Source: Gloeobacter kilaueensis JS1
Lineage (GTDB): Bacteria > Cyanobacteriota > Cyanobacteriia > Gloeobacterales > Gloeobacteraceae
DNA length: 64,000 nucleotides
Reading direction: 5' to 3'
NCBI RefSeq assembly: GCF_000484535.1
Contig: NC_022600.1
Location: 2,976,001 to 3,040,000 of the forward strand
The notes beneath the pieces were generated by a model, which worked only from the letters and a program-made list of their open reading frames with translations, was not told the origin of the DNA and searched no databases. Of this stretch, positions 7,085-48,132 are shown piece by piece; position 1 is the stretch's first letter; each line of letters starts with the position of its first letter. The position numbers and the translations under genes are program-made.

Positions 7085-7750
7085 TTAGTCCAGCCCTTCA
7101 CGAGGGAATAGGGACGGACGCCAGAGCAAGTAGGCGATTGGTCCTACCAGAGGCACCGCTGCCGCCAGCCACAGGGGCCAGATCTGCTTAGAGTTGCGAC
7201 GATACAGATCGTCAGGGATCAGCACCGGCAGCAGGGCGGTGCTCACGACAAAATCGAGACTCATCACGTGTACGAAGCGCGAAGCGTGCCACTGGGCAGC
7301 GAAGGCGGCCCAATCGCCGTGGGTGAGGCCGTTATAGAAAAACCAGCCTATTCCCACTGCAGTGAGCAGTACGAGCCAGCGCGAATCGAAGATGCGCACC
7401 AGCCAACCGGCTGGTTTGCGGGTGGGCCAGTTGTGGTGCGGCTGGCGCAGGATCAGATAAGGGAGCAACGCGAAGGCACCGACAGCGAAGGCTGCCAGCC
7501 CAAAGGGCCAGGCAGGCAGTTTCTGGCCGTGGCCGTCGGGGATAAGCAAAAATAGATACAGTAGCGGGATCAGCCCCATCAGGTTAAACAGCGAGACCAC
7601 CAGCGGCTCGCCCTGACCGAGGGCCAGCGCTGTCAGGCTCTGCACCAGTTGCTGGGGCGTCTGGGTCTCGGCGGGAGCAAGAAAAAAAGCGTAGATGCCA
7701 AAGGCTATCCACACCAGTCCCAACAAAAGGCGAACGACGAAGGTCGGCAT
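7085..7750 (-). CDS. Conserved membrane protein of unknown function
   Basis: About 221 residues with an N-terminal helix (VVRLLLGLVWIAFGIYAFFLA) and several further hydrophobic segments (LFNLMGLIPLLYLFLLIP, FGLAAFAVGAFALLPYLIL, WLVLLTAVGIGWFFYNGL, WPLWLAAAVPLVGPIAYLLW), consistent with five to six membrane spans. The conserved-looking motif FDSRW sits between spans. No catalytic motif is visible and I assign no function. The ATG at 7750 follows GGGGGAGA. The start region lies inside an 84-base sequence that is repeated, degraded, at 8366-8450. Confidence 0.7.
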   Translation of the reverse strand: MPTFVVRLLLGLVWIAFGIYAFFLAPAETQTPQQLVQSLTALALGQGEPLVVSLFNLMGLIPLLYLFLLIPDGHGQKLPAWPFGLAAFAVGAFALLPYLILRQPHHNWPTRKPAGWLVRIFDSRWLVLLTAVGIGWFFYNGLTHGDWAAFAAQWHASRFVHVMSLDFVVSTALLPVLIPDDLYRRNSKQIWPLWLAAAVPLVGPIAYLLWRPSLFPREGLD

Positions 7751-7817
7751 CCTGTTCTCCCCCAGTCCTGCTACAAGTCTAATTTCAGCTTCCCGTATCA
7801 GCGGTAGTGCTGGGCCT
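7734..7817. repeat. Direct repeat, copy A
   Basis: Matches 8366-8450 in the same orientation with a few small indels. The shared ends are CGAAGGTCG..CATCCTGTTCT and TCAGCGGTAGTGCTGGGCCT. This copy holds the intact start of the membrane-protein gene at one end and a 20-base remnant of the 3' end of the ABC exporter gene at the other. Confidence 0.8.
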
Positions 7818-8365: not shown

Positions 8366-8450
8366 ATGACGAAGGTCGTCATCCTGTTCTGCTACAAGTG
8401 TAGTTTTCGCTTTCAGTACTGGGGAACTCTTCAGCGGTAGTGCTGGGCCT
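8366..8450. repeat. Direct repeat, copy B
   Basis: Same-orientation partner of 7734-7817. It contains the true 3' end of the ABC exporter gene and a broken copy of the membrane-protein start (ATGACGACCTTCGTC then a stop within a few codons). The pair marks an insertion or duplication that separated two formerly adjacent genes. Confidence 0.8.
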
Positions 8451-10233
8451 GCAACTCGAAGAGGCGGGCGTAGGTGCCCTGGCGGGCGATGAGTTCGTCG
8501 TGGCTTCCCTGCTCGACAATTCGCCCCTGGGCGAGCACGTAGATGCGGTCGGCGAGTTTGACGGTCGAAAGACGATGGCTGATGAGCACTGTTGTGCGCC
8601 GGGCCGCCAGAAGCTGGAACTTCTCGAAGATCTCGTCTTCGGCGGCGGCGTCGATGGCACTGGTGGGTTCATCGAGAATCAGCACCGGGCAATCGCGCCA
8701 GAAAGCCCGTGCCAGCGCCACTTTTTGCCACTGGCCAACGCTCAGTTCTTCGCCTTGATCGAACCAGCGTCCCAGCAGCGTCTGGTAGCCGTCGCGCAAC
8801 TGGGCGATGACCTCGTGCGCACCCGATGCCTGGGCGGCACGGGCGATAGGCTCGCTTTCTTCGGCGTGGGCGGGGGCGATATTTTCGGCGGCACTCAGGT
8901 GATAGCGGGCAAAGTCCTGAAAGATAGCGCTCACCGTCTGCCGCCAGGTGCGCAGGGACAGATCCCGCAGGTCGATGCCATCGACGGTGATCCGGCCTGC
9001 ACTCGGGTCGTAGAGGCGGCAAAGCAGCTTCACGAGCGTTGTCTTGCCCGAGCCGTTCTCGCCGACGAAGGCGACGATCTGGCCAGGGGCGATCGTGAGG
9101 TCGATGTGGTCGAGGGCCGATTCTTTGCTGTCGGGATAGCAGAAACTCACGTTCTCGAAGCGGATGCCGCTCTGCAGCGGCAGGGGCAGGGAAACAGGCT
9201 CGGCAGGCTCGGCGACGTGGTTGGGCAGATCGAGAAATTCGTAGAGGTAGCTTAAGAACAGGTTGTCTTCGTAGAGGCGAACAAGGCTGCCCAGTGCCTC
9301 CTGCAGGTAGGTCTGAGCGCGCTGGAATGCCTGGAAGTACATGAACAGATCCCCCAGGGTAAGCCCGCCCTGCAGGGTGCGAAGAGCGATGTAACCCAGG
9401 CAGGCAAGAATGGCGACGGCTGCTCCGGCCTGGGTGGCAAAGTCGGCGAGTGCCTGTTTAGAAGCCAGTTGCAGCCGCTCGCGGCGCAACTCGGCGCGCA
9501 GCTCGCAGTAGCGCTGCTCAAAAGCCTCCGCCAGATCGAAGAGACGAATTTCTTTGGCGTGGCTGTCGCCGGTGAGCATTCCGTTGAAGTACCAGGCCCG
9601 CCGCTCGCGCGGGGTGCGCAGGCGCTGCCAGCGAAAGAGGGTCTCAGCGTAGCGCAGCCGCACGAGGGTACCAGGCAGGACGGCAGCGAGCAGCAGCAGG
9701 GCCGTCCCCCAGTGCAGCGTCAACAAAAGCAGAGCCACCGCGAGCAAAGAAAATACACTCTGGCCCAGTTGCACCAGCCCGGCGATGATCCGGGCGGGGC
9801 GAAAGGGTGCTTCCTGTAAGGCCCGGTGCAGCGTGTCGTAGTAGCGGGCATTCTCGTAGTAGGCAAAATCGACCGCCGCCGCCTTGCGGTGGACGATCCC
9901 GTGCAGATAATCGGTCACCACCTGGGTCTGAGCCTCGCTCACCCAGCCGCTCAGCGCCCGGCAGGCGGCAGCGGCCAGGGCCGTGAGCCCCAGTAGCCCC
10001 AAAAGCGGCAGTACGGTGGCGAGGGCACTGCTTTTATCGGGCAAAAGCAGGCCGCTACTCACCCCATCGACCAGCAATTTTGTCAGATAAAGCGAGGCGA
10101 CGGGCAGAACCGCCTGCACGACGAGCAAAACGAGATTGGCGCTCGTCCAGCCGGGGCTGCTCTGCCAGACCAGCCGCAGGGCACGGCCCAGTTGTAGTAC
10201 CTGCCGGATTTGCAACCTGTTTTGTTGTGCCAT
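8431..10233 (-). CDS. ABC exporter, fused membrane and ATPase domains (lasso-operon D-type)
   Basis: A 600-residue half-transporter. The N-terminal 320 residues carry the six-helix exporter domain (LVLLVVQAVLPVASLYLTKLLVDG and later spans). The ATPase domain has Walker A GENGSGKTTLVKLL, signature LSVGQWQKVALARA (a variant of LSGGQ), Walker B CPVLILDEPTSAID and the switch His in LISHRLSTV. It starts 2 bases after the kinase stop and is the third gene of the precursor-kinase-exporter operon, so export of the small peptide encoded at 11183-11320 is the natural inference. There is no N-terminal C39 peptidase domain, so leader removal would need another enzyme. Confidence 0.88.
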   Translation of the reverse strand: MAQQNRLQIRQVLQLGRALRLVWQSSPGWTSANLVLLVVQAVLPVASLYLTKLLVDGVSSGLLLPDKSSALATVLPLLGLLGLTALAAAACRALSGWVSEAQTQVVTDYLHGIVHRKAAAVDFAYYENARYYDTLHRALQEAPFRPARIIAGLVQLGQSVFSLLAVALLLLTLHWGTALLLLAAVLPGTLVRLRYAETLFRWQRLRTPRERRAWYFNGMLTGDSHAKEIRLFDLAEAFEQRYCELRAELRRERLQLASKQALADFATQAGAAVAILACLGYIALRTLQGGLTLGDLFMYFQAFQRAQTYLQEALGSLVRLYEDNLFLSYLYEFLDLPNHVAEPAEPVSLPLPLQSGIRFENVSFCYPDSKESALDHIDLTIAPGQIVAFVGENGSGKTTLVKLLCRLYDPSAGRITVDGIDLRDLSLRTWRQTVSAIFQDFARYHLSAAENIAPAHAEESEPIARAAQASGAHEVIAQLRDGYQTLLGRWFDQGEELSVGQWQKVALARAFWRDCPVLILDEPTSAIDAAAEDEIFEKFQLLAARRTTVLISHRLSTVKLADRIYVLAQGRIVEQGSHDELIARQGTYARLFELQAQHYR

Positions 10234-10235
10234 CG

Positions 10236-11156
10236 CTAGCTATGCACTCCCGGCGCTGAGCGCTGCCAGGTGCGAGTGCGCAAAAAAGCGAACACATCCG
10301 GCAGGCGGGCGAACTGGCGCGGGTAGAACAACTGCTCCACCGGCACCCGCGCCACCAGTTCGGCGTAGGCGGCGAGCAAGCCGGGATGGGTGACAGCAAA
10401 GTAACGGGCGTAGTAGCTGTGGGCAATCAACTCGAAGACCGCCTGGGCCGGCGGCACCGTCCGGCTTTCGATCCGATCGCCGTCGCTCTGCTCCAGCAGG
10501 TAGATCGCCTTGAGGGGCACCGGCTGATTCTGGACCTGCCCGCCCAACCGGGTTGGGTGGAGGTGAAGCTTGTAGTCGGTCGTGCCCGCCACCAGGCCCA
10601 GGCTCTCGGCGGTGTGGGCAAACAACTTGAGGCGGGCGTAGCCGGGGATGGCCTGCATCTGGCGATCGACGCTGAGCACGTCGTCGCTTACGAGCGCTGC
10701 GCCCTGGCTCAGGCAGTAGGCGCTCAGGGTCGATTTGCCGCGTCCGGCGTGGCCCACGAAGGCCATTGCCCCTTCTTTGAAGGCAACGGCGTTGGCGTGA
10801 ACGGCCACACGGCCCTGCAGCAACAGACAGGTGCCGAGCACACTCGCGGTCATAAAATTGAGAAGCGAGCTTTCACACTGGCCTGCCTCGGGGTTGACCA
10901 GGAGAATCTCAACGCGCTGGCCATCCTCGTCGATCCAGACACCGACCGTCTCAGACCAAGCGAGCCATCGCCTTCCGCCGCGCTCACCAGCAAAAATTTC
11001 CTCGCTCAGCCCCCGGCCATCCAGGGCGACCGGCAACGCATCCACGCTGCGCAGGCAAACCTGCTCAGCCTTGAGAGCGGGCTGCAACTCCCGATAAGCG
11101 ATCTCCGCCAGCGTATCGAGAACGGAGGAGGCCCGGTTCGCCTTCAGCATGGCCAT
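10236..11156 (-). CDS. HprK-like serine kinase of a RiPP operon
   Basis: A 306-residue protein with an HPr-kinase/phosphorylase-like P-loop GHAGRGKST (135-143) and downstream SDDVLSVD (157-164), preceded by VHANAV, as in HprK-related kinases. Such kinases occur in lasso-peptide clusters, where one (in the paeninodin cluster) phosphorylates the C-terminal Ser of the precursor. The ATG at 11156 has GGAGAGGG six bases upstream; an in-frame TTG at 11189 overlapping the precursor stop is an alternative that would couple translation. The neighbours are the precursor upstream and the exporter downstream. A kinase role on the peptide is inferred from context. Confidence 0.8.
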   Translation of the reverse strand: MAMLKANRASSVLDTLAEIAYRELQPALKAEQVCLRSVDALPVALDGRGLSEEIFAGERGGRRWLAWSETVGVWIDEDGQRVEILLVNPEAGQCESSLLNFMTASVLGTCLLLQGRVAVHANAVAFKEGAMAFVGHAGRGKSTLSAYCLSQGAALVSDDVLSVDRQMQAIPGYARLKLFAHTAESLGLVAGTTDYKLHLHPTRLGGQVQNQPVPLKAIYLLEQSDGDRIESRTVPPAQAVFELIAHSYYARYFAVTHPGLLAAYAELVARVPVEQLFYPRQFARLPDVFAFLRTRTWQRSAPGVHS

Positions 11157-11182
11157 CTGGTGCCCTCTCCACCGTGCGCCGA

Positions 11183-11320
11183 TCAGCAAACGCTATGGGA
11201 ACCGAAGCCACCGGGATAGCACTCCGGGTGCAGCGGCGGATAGGCCGCCGTCATCGCAGTGAGGTTGCCGAGGGGCTTGACCTGAGGAGCAATATAGGCG
11301 CGTTTCTGGGAAGACTTCAT
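11183..11320 (-). CDS. Lasso-peptide-type precursor (45 aa)
   Basis: A 45-residue peptide. Its leader contains YIAPQVKPLGNLTAMT (residues 9-24), matching the lasso leader pattern YxxP...G...T recognised by the B1/RRE protein, with Thr at -2. Cleavage after Ala25 gives the core AYPPLHPECYPGGFGSHSVC, in which Ala1 could close an eight-residue macrolactam on Glu8. Cys9 and Cys20 could form a disulfide between loop and tail. GGCAGG lies about 11 bases before the ATG. It is followed directly by an HprK-like kinase and an ABC exporter. B1, B2 and C enzymes are not in the window, so maturation would need enzymes encoded elsewhere, or the system is a remnant. Confidence 0.72.
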   Translation of the reverse strand: MKSSQKRAYIAPQVKPLGNLTAMTAAYPPLHPECYPGGFGSHSVC

Positions 11321-11429: not shown

Positions 11430-11665
11430 AAGGACTAAGTAGACGAAGCGAAAAGCATCAGGTTTTGGGTTGGAGTGAGGGAAGCGGATTTTTGGGAGCT
11501 GGTTGTTCTTTTGCTTTTTTGGGTGCTTGCTAAAACCGTCCCCCACCCCTCCACACCCCCACCTGGCCCCAAAAGGGGCCTGCCCCCCGCTCTCCTCCTC
11601 CTGCCCCCCGACCTGGCCCCAAAAGGGGCATGGGGGGCTGCCCCGCCGGGCAGAGGAGAAGAGAT
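11430..11665. repeat. Dispersed C/G-tract repeat element, copy 1
   Basis: Homologous over roughly 230 bases to 55072-55305. Shared order: GACTAAG, AGACGAAGCGAAAA, GGTTTTGGG, GGGTGCTTGCTAAAAC, CCCCACCCCTCCACACCCCC, CTCTCCTCCTCCTGCCCCCC, then CCGCCGGGCAGAGGAG. Copy 1 carries two insertions of the palindromic segment ACCTGGCCCCAAAAGGGGC and lacks the long right-hand hairpin arm of copy 2. No credible protein is encoded. It sits between the lasso-type operon and an IS110 transposase. The nearly 400-base gap 11321-11713 holds only this element and the putative promoter. Confidence 0.75.
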
Positions 11666-11713: not shown

Positions 11714-12742
11714 CTACTGCAAGCAAACCAACCTGCCGTGCTCTGCATCGAAAGGCGTGTCTGTTTTCACAACCGCCCAGGCAATGTGTAAGAGTTTGCG
11801 AGCCGCAGCGCAAAGCGCTACCTTTGCCGGTTTACCGGCTGCTCGTAGCCGCTGGTAAAAGCTTTTAATCTGCTGATTGCAGCGGATCGCACTCAAGCTC
11901 GCCATATACAGCGCCGTGCGTAAGCGGGCATTGCCTGCATGGCCGATGCGCTCTGGTCTATGAAGGCTGGTGCCGCTACGGTGGGAGCGGGGAGCGAGAC
12001 CCGCGTAGGCCACCGCCGCTTCCACCGTTGCACAGCAGCCGAAGTTGAGGGTACTCACCAACACCCACCCAGCGGTGACAGACCCAATGCCTTTGATAGT
12101 GCGCAGCTTGGTTGCAGCTTGATGCCAAAGCGAGTCTTGGGCGAGCAGCGCTTCTAGCTGAGCTTCCATCTGCGCAATCTGCTCATCGAAGGTGTGGCTC
12201 AACTGCTCCAGACTCGCTTGTACCGCCGCCACCACCAACGGAAATTGCCGCAGAGCGTGCAACTGGTTGTGCAGTTGTTGGCGTTGCTGCAGCAAGGCAT
12301 CGCGATGCTGCAGGCGCTGTTGGAGTTGGTAATAAATCTCAGGCGGCGGCTGCCAAAGACCAGGTTGCAGGGCGGCAGCGAGTTGGGCAAGCGTCTGGGC
12401 ATCAAGCGCATCGCTTTTGGAACGCTTGAGCAGTGCCCTGGCAAAGTAATGAGACTGAGCGGGGTTGACCACACTGACGGCAAAACCTTTGAGCGCCAGA
12501 AATGTGGCCAGTCGCATCCAGTAGGAGCCTGTGGCTTCGATGACCACTAACACCTCAGCGGCGGTGGGACAGACGGCGAGTAAGCGTTCGGCCAATTGGC
12601 AGTGTCCTTCGGGGGTTTGGGGCAGTGTGATGGCAGCGGTAGGCTTTGCGTGGGTGAGCAGCCAGGCGGCAGTGACAGTGAGTGCCGCCACATCAATACC
12701 GACAAATAGCTGATAGTCGTTTTGTGAACCGTCTCGCTGCAT
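11714..12742 (-). CDS. IS110-family transposase
   Basis: A 342-residue DEDD-type recombinase. The N-terminal RuvC-like domain has FVGIDVA with the first Asp, VVIEATGSYW with the Glu, and KSDALDAQTLA with the terminal Asps. The C-terminal Transposase_20 domain has TIKGIGSVTAGWVL, then YAGLAPRSHRSG and GHAGNARLRTALYMASLSA, which should hold the catalytic Ser. The ATG at 12742 (MQRDGSQNDYQLFVGID) follows GGAGA and is preferred over a start at 12829. IS110 elements lack terminal inverted repeats, so the element ends cannot be fixed from one copy. The gene appears intact. Confidence 0.9.
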   Translation of the reverse strand: MQRDGSQNDYQLFVGIDVAALTVTAAWLLTHAKPTAAITLPQTPEGHCQLAERLLAVCPTAAEVLVVIEATGSYWMRLATFLALKGFAVSVVNPAQSHYFARALLKRSKSDALDAQTLAQLAAALQPGLWQPPPEIYYQLQQRLQHRDALLQQRQQLHNQLHALRQFPLVVAAVQASLEQLSHTFDEQIAQMEAQLEALLAQDSLWHQAATKLRTIKGIGSVTAGWVLVSTLNFGCCATVEAAVAYAGLAPRSHRSGTSLHRPERIGHAGNARLRTALYMASLSAIRCNQQIKSFYQRLRAAGKPAKVALCAAARKLLHIAWAVVKTDTPFDAEHGRLVCLQ

Positions 12743-13235
12743 GAGTGTCTCCAGTTGAAGCTTCAGAGGAGGTAGGCAAGTTCCGCAGGACGGCAAAAGT
12801 CTAGCCTCGTGATACGTGGTCAGTGCCACTCGATACGGTTCAGCTTTGCCGGTCCTTGATAGCGGGGGACAATCTCTTCCACGCGGTCAAAGCCGCAAGG
12901 GGGGGCACAGTCCTCACCGCTACCTTGGAACCAATAGCAATATACGAGGGGGGGTTCACTGTAACTGGGCTGCAGGCGCGATGGGTGAGGTCAGTCGCAG
13001 GCTCGTCTTATTTTTCTTCTGCTGCAAGGGAGGCAGGGCTGCTTGGAGCTGATGTTGAATGACCTTCGTCTACTAGCAACCCTTCCATCGTGACCGCAGC
13101 GTCGAAGTGGTCGAGCCGCGACCCGGTTTTCTGCCGTCCGGTGGGAGGATCAACCCTACCCGAGGCACAGGCCACCGCAGGCAGGAAGTTGCCACAATGA
13201 GATGTACATCCTACCGAGTTTCGAGGAGCAAGAAG
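12743..13235. other. IS110 upstream non-coding segment and flank
   Basis: About 490 bases without a gene I can support. IS110 elements are known to encode a structured bridge RNA in a non-coding end, often 5' of the transposase, so 12743 to about 12950 is the place to look for one here. I cannot resolve its target and donor loops by eye. A short plus-strand frame (12823-13062) is open but unrecognised. Confidence 0.35.
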
Positions 13236-39558: not shown

Positions 39559-40769
39559 ATGCCTGGACCCAAACCACCCGCTCTGGTGCTTGCTGAAGAT
39601 GTCCGCTCAGCTCTGCAGAAATTCTCAACCAAACACAGCACCCCCCAACAGCTAGCCTGGAGAGCCAAACTCATTCTTGGTTGCGCCGACGGCCTCAATA
39701 ACTCCCAGGTGGCACACGCTCACGACACGGACCCCGATGCCGTGCGCTTTTGGCGCAGCCGCTGGCTGGCTGTTGCGGCCATCCCACTGCCAGATCTCAG
39801 CATTGAGGAGCGACTGGCCGATGCCCCCAGAGCAGGCAAGAAGTCTGCTATTAGCCCGGAGCAGTTTTGTCAGATTGTCGCTCTAGCGTGTGAAGCGCCA
39901 GAAAAATCAGGCCGCCCGATTACTCAGTGGTCTGGCAGCGAAATCGCCAAAGAAATCGTGGCCCGTGGCATCCTGCCTTCAATTTCGCCGCGTCATGCCT
40001 TGCGCCTACTCAAAAAGGGGATCTCCAACCCCACCGCGTCCGGGGCTGGCTCACCGCGCTAAAAGACGAGAACTTTGAACCTAAAGTGCAGCACATCTGC
40101 GCACTTTACCAACAGGCACCCGCCCTGCAAGCGGCGGGAGAAGTAGTTTTCAGCAGTGATGAAATGACCGCAGTGCAAGCACTGGAGCGTCTGCATCCAG
40201 ACAAGCCAATGCGGCCAGGAGCGCCTGAGAAGCAGGAGTTTGAGTACATTCGTCACGGCACGCTGTCTCTGATTATTCATCGGGAGGTGGCCAGTGGCCA
40301 ACTTGTCGCGCCGTTTGCCGCTCCCACCCGTGCAGAAGAAGACTTCGCTCTTTCTTTGGTGCTGGCGATGGGCACCCGTCCTGAGGCTGTGCGCTGGCAC
40401 TTTGTGGTGGACAATCTCAACATTCATCAGTCTGAGTTGCTGGTGCGGTTAGTCGCTGCTGTGGAGGGTAGCTCTGAGAAGTTGGGGCGCAAAGGCAAAA
40501 GCGGCATCCTCAAGTCGATGGCCAGCCGACAGGCATACCTGAGCGATCCGAAGCACCGAGTTGTTTTGCACTACACACCCAAACATGCCTCCTGGCTCAA
40601 TCAAGTCGAGATGTGGCTATCGATCTTGGCACGCAAAGTGCTCAGGCGTAGCTCGTTCCGCTCAGTTGAGGAGTTGCGCGAGCGGGTGTGGGCCTTTATT
40701 GAGTATTACAACCTGGAATGGGCGAAGCCGTTCAAGTGGACCCACCAGGGCAAGCCTTTACAGGTATGA
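39559..40769 (+). CDS. IS630-family transposase, two frames joined by -1 frameshift
   Basis: Frame A (39559-40062) encodes the helix-turn-helix part ([38 protein letters not shown]; then [17 protein letters not shown]). Frame B, entered near 40017 and ending 40769, encodes the DDE domain: [15 protein letters not shown] (first Asp), [11 protein letters not shown] (second Asp), [25 protein letters not shown] (Glu). C-AAA-AAG at 40011-40017 followed by GGG is a fitting -1 slippery site, and the joined product continues in register. Whether the shift is programmed or a decay mutation is open; two-frame IS630 transposases are known. Confidence 0.82.
40011..40017 (+). other. Candidate -1 ribosomal frameshift site (CAAAAAG)
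   Basis: In frame A the codons are AAA AAG; slipping back one base re-pairs AAG with AAA and continues in frame B (GGG GAT CTC). It lies 45 bases before the frame A stop, within the overlap of the two frames. Confidence 0.5.
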
Positions 40770-46604: not shown

Positions 46605-46956
46605 CAAGAAGCTGTCCGGACAAACGACTGGTTAGGGAGCTGGTCTGGCTTTCTGTCACTCAAAATCCGCGTTTCTACACTCCTGCTGCGCACCGAACCG
46701 CAAGCAAGATTCGTCCTGAATGACATCAACAGCGGACGATCAGCGATATTCAATTTTTGCACACATTTCCTGTATTCTATAACACCTATATTTGGTTCAG
46801 CAGTGGAATGTACCAACCTTAAAACTCTTATTTCACAGGCGTTTGAGGCTTGTTAGCAGCGTAGCAGATGCACAATCTATGTTGCCCTCCGTACATGCCC
46901 CTATGGGCTTCTGCCCTTACAATGCTCTCGTTCCACTACTCGGTAGAGAAGCAACT
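46605..46956. other. Intergenic region, no gene seen
   Basis: About 350 bases between the divergent small TPR gene and the repeat-protein gene. AT-rich around 46740-46800 (CCTGTATTCTATAACACCTATATTTGG), where promoters may lie. No recognisable motif or RNA. Confidence 0.35.
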
Positions 46957-48132
46957 ATGATCACTCCCCCGGTCCTCCGAGCGACTCGGACACTGTGTTT
47001 GTCCCTCCTTCTGGCACCAGCTCTCGGTCTGACGGCACTTTCCAGCCGCGCTGAGGCAGGTACTTTTACTTCCCTTTATTCGTTCTGCGCCGATCTCACC
47101 ATCTGCGTCGATGGGTCGTTCCCCAACGACCTGCTGCAGGGCAGCGACGGCAACTTCTACGGCACGACAGCGGGAGGCGGTAATTTTTCCGCCGGTACCG
47201 TCTTCAAAGTAACGCCGGACGGCAGCCTGAGCACCCTCTATACCTTCACCGGCGACATCGACGGTTCTACGCCCAACGCCCTTGCGAAGGGCAAGGGCAG
47301 CAAGTTCTTCTACGGCACCACCCAGGTTGGCGGCAACCCGGATGCCTCCAGCGGCACCGTCTTTAAGATCGATACCGCTGGCAATCTGAGTACTCTTTAC
47401 ACCTTCACAGGCGCTAGCGATGGCGGCAACCCCCTCGCTGCACCGACCCTCGGCAGCGGCTACGCTCTGTACGGCACGACCTCAGCTGGAGGCCAGTTCG
47501 GAGCCGGTACGATCTACAAGTTCCTGCCGAACAGCAGCGTGAGCGCTCTGGGCTCGTTTAACTTCAACAACGGCAGTGGTTCATCTGCCGAATTGCTCAG
47601 CACCGGGAAGAACAACTTTGTTGGCACCTCCACGATCGGTGGACAATTTGGCCTCGGCAATATCTACCAGGTCAATGCCAAGGGCAAAGTCACGAGCCTC
47701 TACTCGTTTACCGGTGGCAGCGACGGTGAGTTGCCCAACGCCGGTCTCATCCTCGGCGCTGACGGCAACTACTACGGCACCACCGAAGAGGGCGGGGATC
47801 TGGGCCTCGGCACGATCTTCCAGGTATCGCCGATCGGCACCCTGACGACGCTCTACACCTTCAGCGGCCCCGACGGAGCGAGCCCTACCAGCGCTCTGGT
47901 GCTGGGGAGTGACGGCAACTTCTATGGCACCACCAGCAGCGGCGGTGACTTTGGCTTCGGCACGATCTTCCAGCTCACGCCCGATGGCACCTTCACTGTC
48001 CTCTATTCATTCAACAGCACCGACGGTGCCGCGCCCAACACGCTGCTGCTGGCGAGCGACGGTGCCTTCTACAGCACGACGACGAGCGGTGGCCTCTACG
48101 GCCAGGGCACGATCTTCAAGTTCCAGCCTTGA
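46957..48132 (+). CDS. Secreted Gloeobacter/Verrucomicrobia-type repeat protein
   Basis: 391 residues. Signal peptide LCLSLLLAPALGLTALSSRAEA-G. The mature protein consists of seven repeats of about 50 residues of the form LYTFTGGSDG..P...L..GSDGNFYGTTxxGGxxGxGTIFQLTPDG, the motif known as the Gloeo_Verruco repeat (TIGR03803), thought to fold as a beta-propeller-like array. It would be extracellular or outer-membrane associated; function unknown. The ATG at 46957 sits at the signal peptide; a longer frame from 46792 is unlikely. It is followed by a strong terminator. Confidence 0.88.
   Translation: MITPPVLRATRTLCLSLLLAPALGLTALSSRAEAGTFTSLYSFCADLTICVDGSFPNDLLQGSDGNFYGTTAGGGNFSAGTVFKVTPDGSLSTLYTFTGDIDGSTPNALAKGKGSKFFYGTTQVGGNPDASSGTVFKIDTAGNLSTLYTFTGASDGGNPLAAPTLGSGYALYGTTSAGGQFGAGTIYKFLPNSSVSALGSFNFNNGSGSSAELLSTGKNNFVGTSTIGGQFGLGNIYQVNAKGKVTSLYSFTGGSDGELPNAGLILGADGNYYGTTEEGGDLGLGTIFQVSPIGTLTTLYTFSGPDGASPTSALVLGSDGNFYGTTSSGGDFGFGTIFQLTPDGTFTVLYSFNSTDGAAPNTLLLASDGAFYSTTTSGGLYGQGTIFKFQP

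Follow-up and report, generated by a model that had tools for sequence, protein, structure and literature searches.

Lasso peptide clusters that carry a kinase gene have been described for paeninodin, for BsfK (PMC10368454) and for ThcoK and SyanK (PMC8498205). Kinases of the ThcoK type phosphorylate a C-terminal serine (PMC8498205), and BsfK of Bradymonas phosphorylates Ser3 (PMC10368454). The motif H-x14-GxxGxGKS-x15-DD was given for lasso precursor kinases in the BsfK study (PMC10368454). Tailoring enzymes need not be encoded in the cluster, since the citrulassin pathway requires a deiminase encoded outside it (PMC12971885). With the kinase-bearing systems, the operon analyzed here shares a YxxP leader, the kinase motif, a D exporter and the presence of B1, B2 and C in the genome. 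The operon lies in the window, by which we mean the whole stretch of 64,000 bases that was analyzed, corresponding to positions 2976001-3040000 of the single contig of 4,724,791 bases that constitutes the genome of Gloeobacter kilaueensis JS1. Coordinates, strand, sequences and spacing of its three genes are as the sequence-only reading had described them:

11183..11320, minus strand: lasso precursor A, 45 amino acids, with ATG at 11320 and stop at 11183
10236..11156 (ATG) or from an in-frame TTG at 11189, minus strand: HprK-like precursor kinase K
8431..10233, minus strand: D-type ABC exporter; its Walker A, signature and Walker B motifs are intact, and it lacks a C39 peptidase domain

The genes are closely packed on one strand. 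An AGG is located approximately 10 nt upstream of the precursor ATG, and translation of the kinase from the TTG would overlap the 3' end of the precursor gene, while the ATG leaves a gap of 26 bases. The precursor consists of the leader MKSSQKRAYIAPQVKPLGNLTAMTA and the core AYPPLHPECYPGGFGSHSVC, with Thr at position -2 and Ala1, Glu8, Cys9 and Cys20 in the core. Its earlier recognition as a lasso-type precursor gained weight from an HMM based on seven precursors from related clusters, with the window's own left out, which scored it at 23.2 bits as a 45-mer, as compared to 9.0 bits for the best of 20,000 shuffled controls and 3.3 bits for the next ORF in the window. The same leader family adjoins B1, B2 and C in other cyanobacteria. 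When the seven precursors were aligned with that of the window, Y9, L17, G18 and T24 were invariant (8/8), and the window precursor contains YxxP, in the form YIAP, as well as Leu-Gly and Thr at -2. Provided that cleavage obeys the T(-2) rule, Ala1 and Glu8 conform to the rule of a small residue at position 1 and Asp or Glu at positions 7-9, and their linkage would close an eight-residue ring; the same spacing is found in the related precursors. The expected match to a lasso leader profile was obtained with the custom HMM but not with the curated leader models NF033521 and NF033528. Since precursors of relatives inside complete clusters fell below the cut-offs of the curated models or gave no match, these models appear insensitive for subtype 1, and a match to them is not class-defining. 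The missing curated match would also fit the notion that the small ORF does not represent a gene and that the kinase-exporter pair serves another purpose. The leave-one-out score largely refutes this notion, and the position before the same kinase is kept in relatives, which makes it hardly credible.

The second gene had been assigned to the HprK-like kinases from its P-loop, GHAGRGKST, and both the published motif and the predicted fold agree with this assignment. Residues H131, G146, G149, G151, K152, S153, D169 and D170 (numbered from the TTG) reproduce the lasso-kinase motif with identical spacing, and the AlphaFold model (pLDDT 85.5) matched HprK/P with a Z-score of 13.7 over 136 residues and also the PEPCK fold. 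The NCBIfam model HprK_rel_B returned 1e-9, which is below that model's cut-off. In a phylogenetic tree, the kinase grouped with full support (100/100) with kinases of complete cyanobacterial subtype-1 lasso clusters, and a search of plasmids yielded only distant kinases with 25-31% identity. ThcoK-type kinases use a C-terminal Ser, whereas the window core ends in Cys; it also lacks Ser3. The exporter, likewise recognized correctly, has the signature LSVGQ, is 49-51% identical to the orthologous exporters of four complete clusters (L065-L068) and belongs to a 100/100 clade with exporters of compact subtype-1 clusters. Because kinase and exporter both fall into fully supported clades with compact clusters, the operon appears to be the back half, A-K-D, of a subtype-1 cyanobacterial lasso cluster that was parted from its other half.

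A search with the kinase in 390 genomes of the class identified close relatives in six other genomes (E 1e-61 to 1e-68; the next at about 1e-22). In 6/6, the kinase gene is directly preceded by a small gene whose leader has the form Y....V..LG.L..LTQ. The compact clusters of other cyanobacteria are ordered B2-B1-C-A-K-MT-D. In all five of them (L065-L069), B1, C, A, K and D are present; B2 was found in four, and the fifth has a Transglut_core3 match just upstream of B1. A methyltransferase is encoded in four of the five and in the cluster of Ca. Cyanaurora vandensis (L030), and is missing from the window operon.

B1, B2 and C had been reported as absent from the window, which holds true, whereas the rest of the genome contains two B1 genes and one each of B2 and C, all retrieved by the genome-wide search that had been proposed. 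The usual, although not strictly defining, clustering of these genes with the precursor is thus not found in this genome. The only B2, at 3,206,846, scored above the Pfam and NCBIfam cut-offs (NF033537, 44.5 bits vs 33); a B1 gene lies directly upstream of it (3.2074 Mb) and a nucleotidyltransferase gene downstream. This locus is 221 kb away from the operon, and the only cyclase 707 kb. B1 and B2 are open frames, 51% and 49% identical to B1 and B2 of Cyanaurora vandensis, respectively, and the catalytic Cys-His-Asp of B2 is intact; the subtype of B1 was judged by pairwise identity, as the B1 tree was unresolved. Genes that we read as cox2/DUF2231-type from their sequences adjoin both this B1-B2 pair and the Cyanaurora cluster, which suggests that the whole cluster sat at this site in the common ancestor and that A-K-D departed later. 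A PqqD and HprK locus at 1.462 Mb (L029) was considered as a rival source of B1 and rejected; it contains a nucleotidyltransferase gene but no B2, C or recognized precursor. With its PqqD, HprK-like kinase and nucleotidyltransferase beside a small Pro-rich protein, it resembles the HPr-rel-A system.

The cyclase belongs to a second lasso locus, whose precursor was the only other one detected, weakly, in the genome-wide precursor search:

2.279 Mb: second lasso locus with B1, a 30-codon ORF, C, a precursor, two kinases, a dioxygenase-like gene and a methyltransferase
L027 10624-10484 (2.2785 Mb): second precursor, 46 amino acids, above the lasso_leader_L3 cut-off, with the leader YQPPQLHVYGDIRTITQ

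The best model for this cyclase is that of lasso cyclases, NF033535, with a score below its curated cut-off; its frame is open and the motif SGGMDS is intact. In the C tree it was placed in subtype 2 with 100/100 support, thus differing in subtype from the window precursor, and its identity to subtype-1 cyclases is 27-35% in the part that could be aligned. A genome-wide search with a subtype-1 cyclase query detected no subtype-1 cyclase and no further lasso-type cyclase. At the position of B2, the second locus has the 30-codon ORF, which overlaps both B1 and C and is read as a B2 remnant by these features, its sequence being too short for proof. Under the T(-2) rule, core positions 4 and 10 are the only acidic ones of the second precursor; a nine-residue ring would result if cleavage took place one residue further on. 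The methyltransferases of this locus (L027 6392-7522) and of Cyanaurora (L030 10286-11401) are PRMT-like, and the C-terminus of the former weakly matches PqqD, which may point to an integrated domain for leader binding.

Each of the two lasso clusters lacks exactly what the other one holds. The window precursor has a cognate B1 and B2 but a non-cognate C, and the second precursor has a cognate B1 and C but a non-cognate B2. This suggests that components are shared between two broken clusters and that clustering is not a requirement for a lasso pathway. That they complement each other in full, with one B2 serving both precursors and one cyclase closing both rings across subtypes, is a tentative proposal to which we give slightly less than even weight. 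Cross-cyclisation is not assured, because the cyclase is of subtype 2 and the acidic residues of its own precursor are at core positions 4 and 10. With B1, B2 and K cognate and only C not, and with Cys9 and Cys20 able to form a loop unaided, B1/B2 and the kinase could also act without ring formation, and the exporter would secrete a phosphorylated or disulfide-looped linear core. The Ala1-Glu8 ring spacing, kept as in relatives, argues against such a product, which we consider improbable.

Rearrangement marks, which the sequence-only reading had noted on both flanks of the operon, are present:

11714..12829, minus strand: IS110 transposase (NF033542, 210 bits vs a cut-off of 140)
7736..7817, no strand assigned: partial duplicate of the exporter gene 3' end and its flank, a copy of 8368-8450

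The two repeats are identical over a 20-mer that corresponds to the end of the exporter gene, and the approximately 550 bases between them hold an ORF of 161 amino acids. IS110 occupies the place where relatives carry C and B1/B2 and is a possible agent of the cluster break. At 11556-11632, between precursor and transposase, CCTGGCCCCAAAAGGGGC occurs twice in direct orientation and contains a palindrome; these copies may belong to the IS110 end or to the RNA of IS110. Remnants of C, B1 or B2 were sought near the operon and upstream of IS110, and none was found; a remnant of C or B2 is also absent elsewhere in the window. A weak B1-like match is located at 39754-39879 of the window (37% over 43 amino acids, E 0.004), and the repeat protein at 46792-48132 has a relative (37-45%) in a long repeat gene (L030 16787-19468) that lies downstream of the lasso cluster in Cyanaurora. 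As the main rival to a pathway served in trans, the operon could be a recently broken remnant, in which an IS110-linked rearrangement disrupted the cluster, the cyclase that belonged to it disappeared, and A, K and D are silent yet undecayed. Besides IS110 in place of C and the partly duplicated exporter end, the loss of both methyltransferase and cognate C and the negative search for a sigma-70-like promoter consensus upstream of the operon are in line with this explanation. However, the three genes are free of frameshifts and internal stops, their motifs are intact and their GC3 is genome-like (0.78-0.81); B1-B2 is intact as well, single-copy B2 and C are kept at two sites, and similar splits persist in other lineages. 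We therefore regard decay as rather unlikely.

In Ca. Cyanaurora vandensis, the only cyclase gene stands alone on a 94-kb contig, more than 30 kb from either end. Four further genomes (G014, G017, G024 and G167) contain a C-A-K cluster without nearby B1/B2, and their only B2 forms a bare pair with B1 on another contig:

L033, L032, L031 and L070: C-A-K clusters without B1/B2
L104 8307-9042, L105 9328-8524, L106 2097-2850 and L107 8443-9304: bare B1-B2 pairs among housekeeping genes

Several of the genomes with split clusters are drafts, for which location on another contig denotes the lack of tight clustering and not a measured distance. The Asn-synthase-family gene of the lasso cluster is the only one of that family in G017, G024 and G167, and G014 carries another two asparagine-synthetase-like genes. 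Most of the other genomes examined have B2 within a few kb of the kinase gene. B2, C and the operon kinase were absent from the three other Gloeobacter genomes searched, where the aldo-keto reductase neighbors are only 48-49% identical, and a contig scan with patterns avoiding the P-loop returned only Cyanaurora.

Between a minimal cluster served in trans and a remnant, the alternatives raised at the outset, the presence of B1, B2 and C in the genome, the intact frames and motifs, the genome-like GC3 and the recurrence of split clusters in other lineages favor the former. Our best reading, which we consider moderately probable, is therefore that the lasso pathway is completed in trans and borrows its cyclase; the mismatch in cyclase subtype and the IS110 element and repeat at the operon edges hold this confidence down. 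In such a pathway, the operon would be expressed and the cognate B1 (3.2074 Mb) would bind the YIAP...LG leader. The kinase would phosphorylate a hydroxyl residue of the linear precursor, and the B2 encoded next to B1, the only one of the genome, would cleave after Thr(-2)-Ala(-1) and so remove the leader. The subtype-2 cyclase could then join Ala1 to the side chain of Glu8 around the tail, Cys9 and Cys20 might form a disulfide, and the exporter (8431-10233) would secrete the product. Reciprocally, the second locus, having lost its own B2, would use the B2 at 3.207 Mb.

If this complementation is true, shared lasso machinery acting in trans would be a normal arrangement in cyanobacteria. Genome mining usually seeks lasso peptides near a cyclase or B2. 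Should these core enzymes act in trans, such searches overlook orphan precursor operons and underestimate the number of lasso peptides in cyanobacteria. The genome, in which a defined precursor is combined with a single B2 and a single C, would also offer a natural test of the tolerance of one cyclase for foreign precursors, which is useful for lasso engineering. None of the open papers searched describes a B2 or C that acts in trans or is encoded far from the precursor. The uncharacterized cyanobacterial subtype-1 clusters L065-L069 and Cyanaurora L030 share with the operon the orthologous kinase, the leader family and the B1/B2 family, and L065-L068 also the orthologous exporter. However, L065-L069 are compact with their own C, the C of Cyanaurora is alone on another contig, and the window operon lacks the methyltransferase. 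The known kinase-bearing clusters are contiguous, whereas the corresponding genes are distributed here over three loci (A-K-D, B1-B2 and C). As in the citrulassin pathway (PMC12971885), enzymes from outside would be needed; an outside tailoring enzyme is thus already known for lasso pathways, but there it is only the deiminase, whereas here the leader peptidase and the cyclase would be supplied from a distance.
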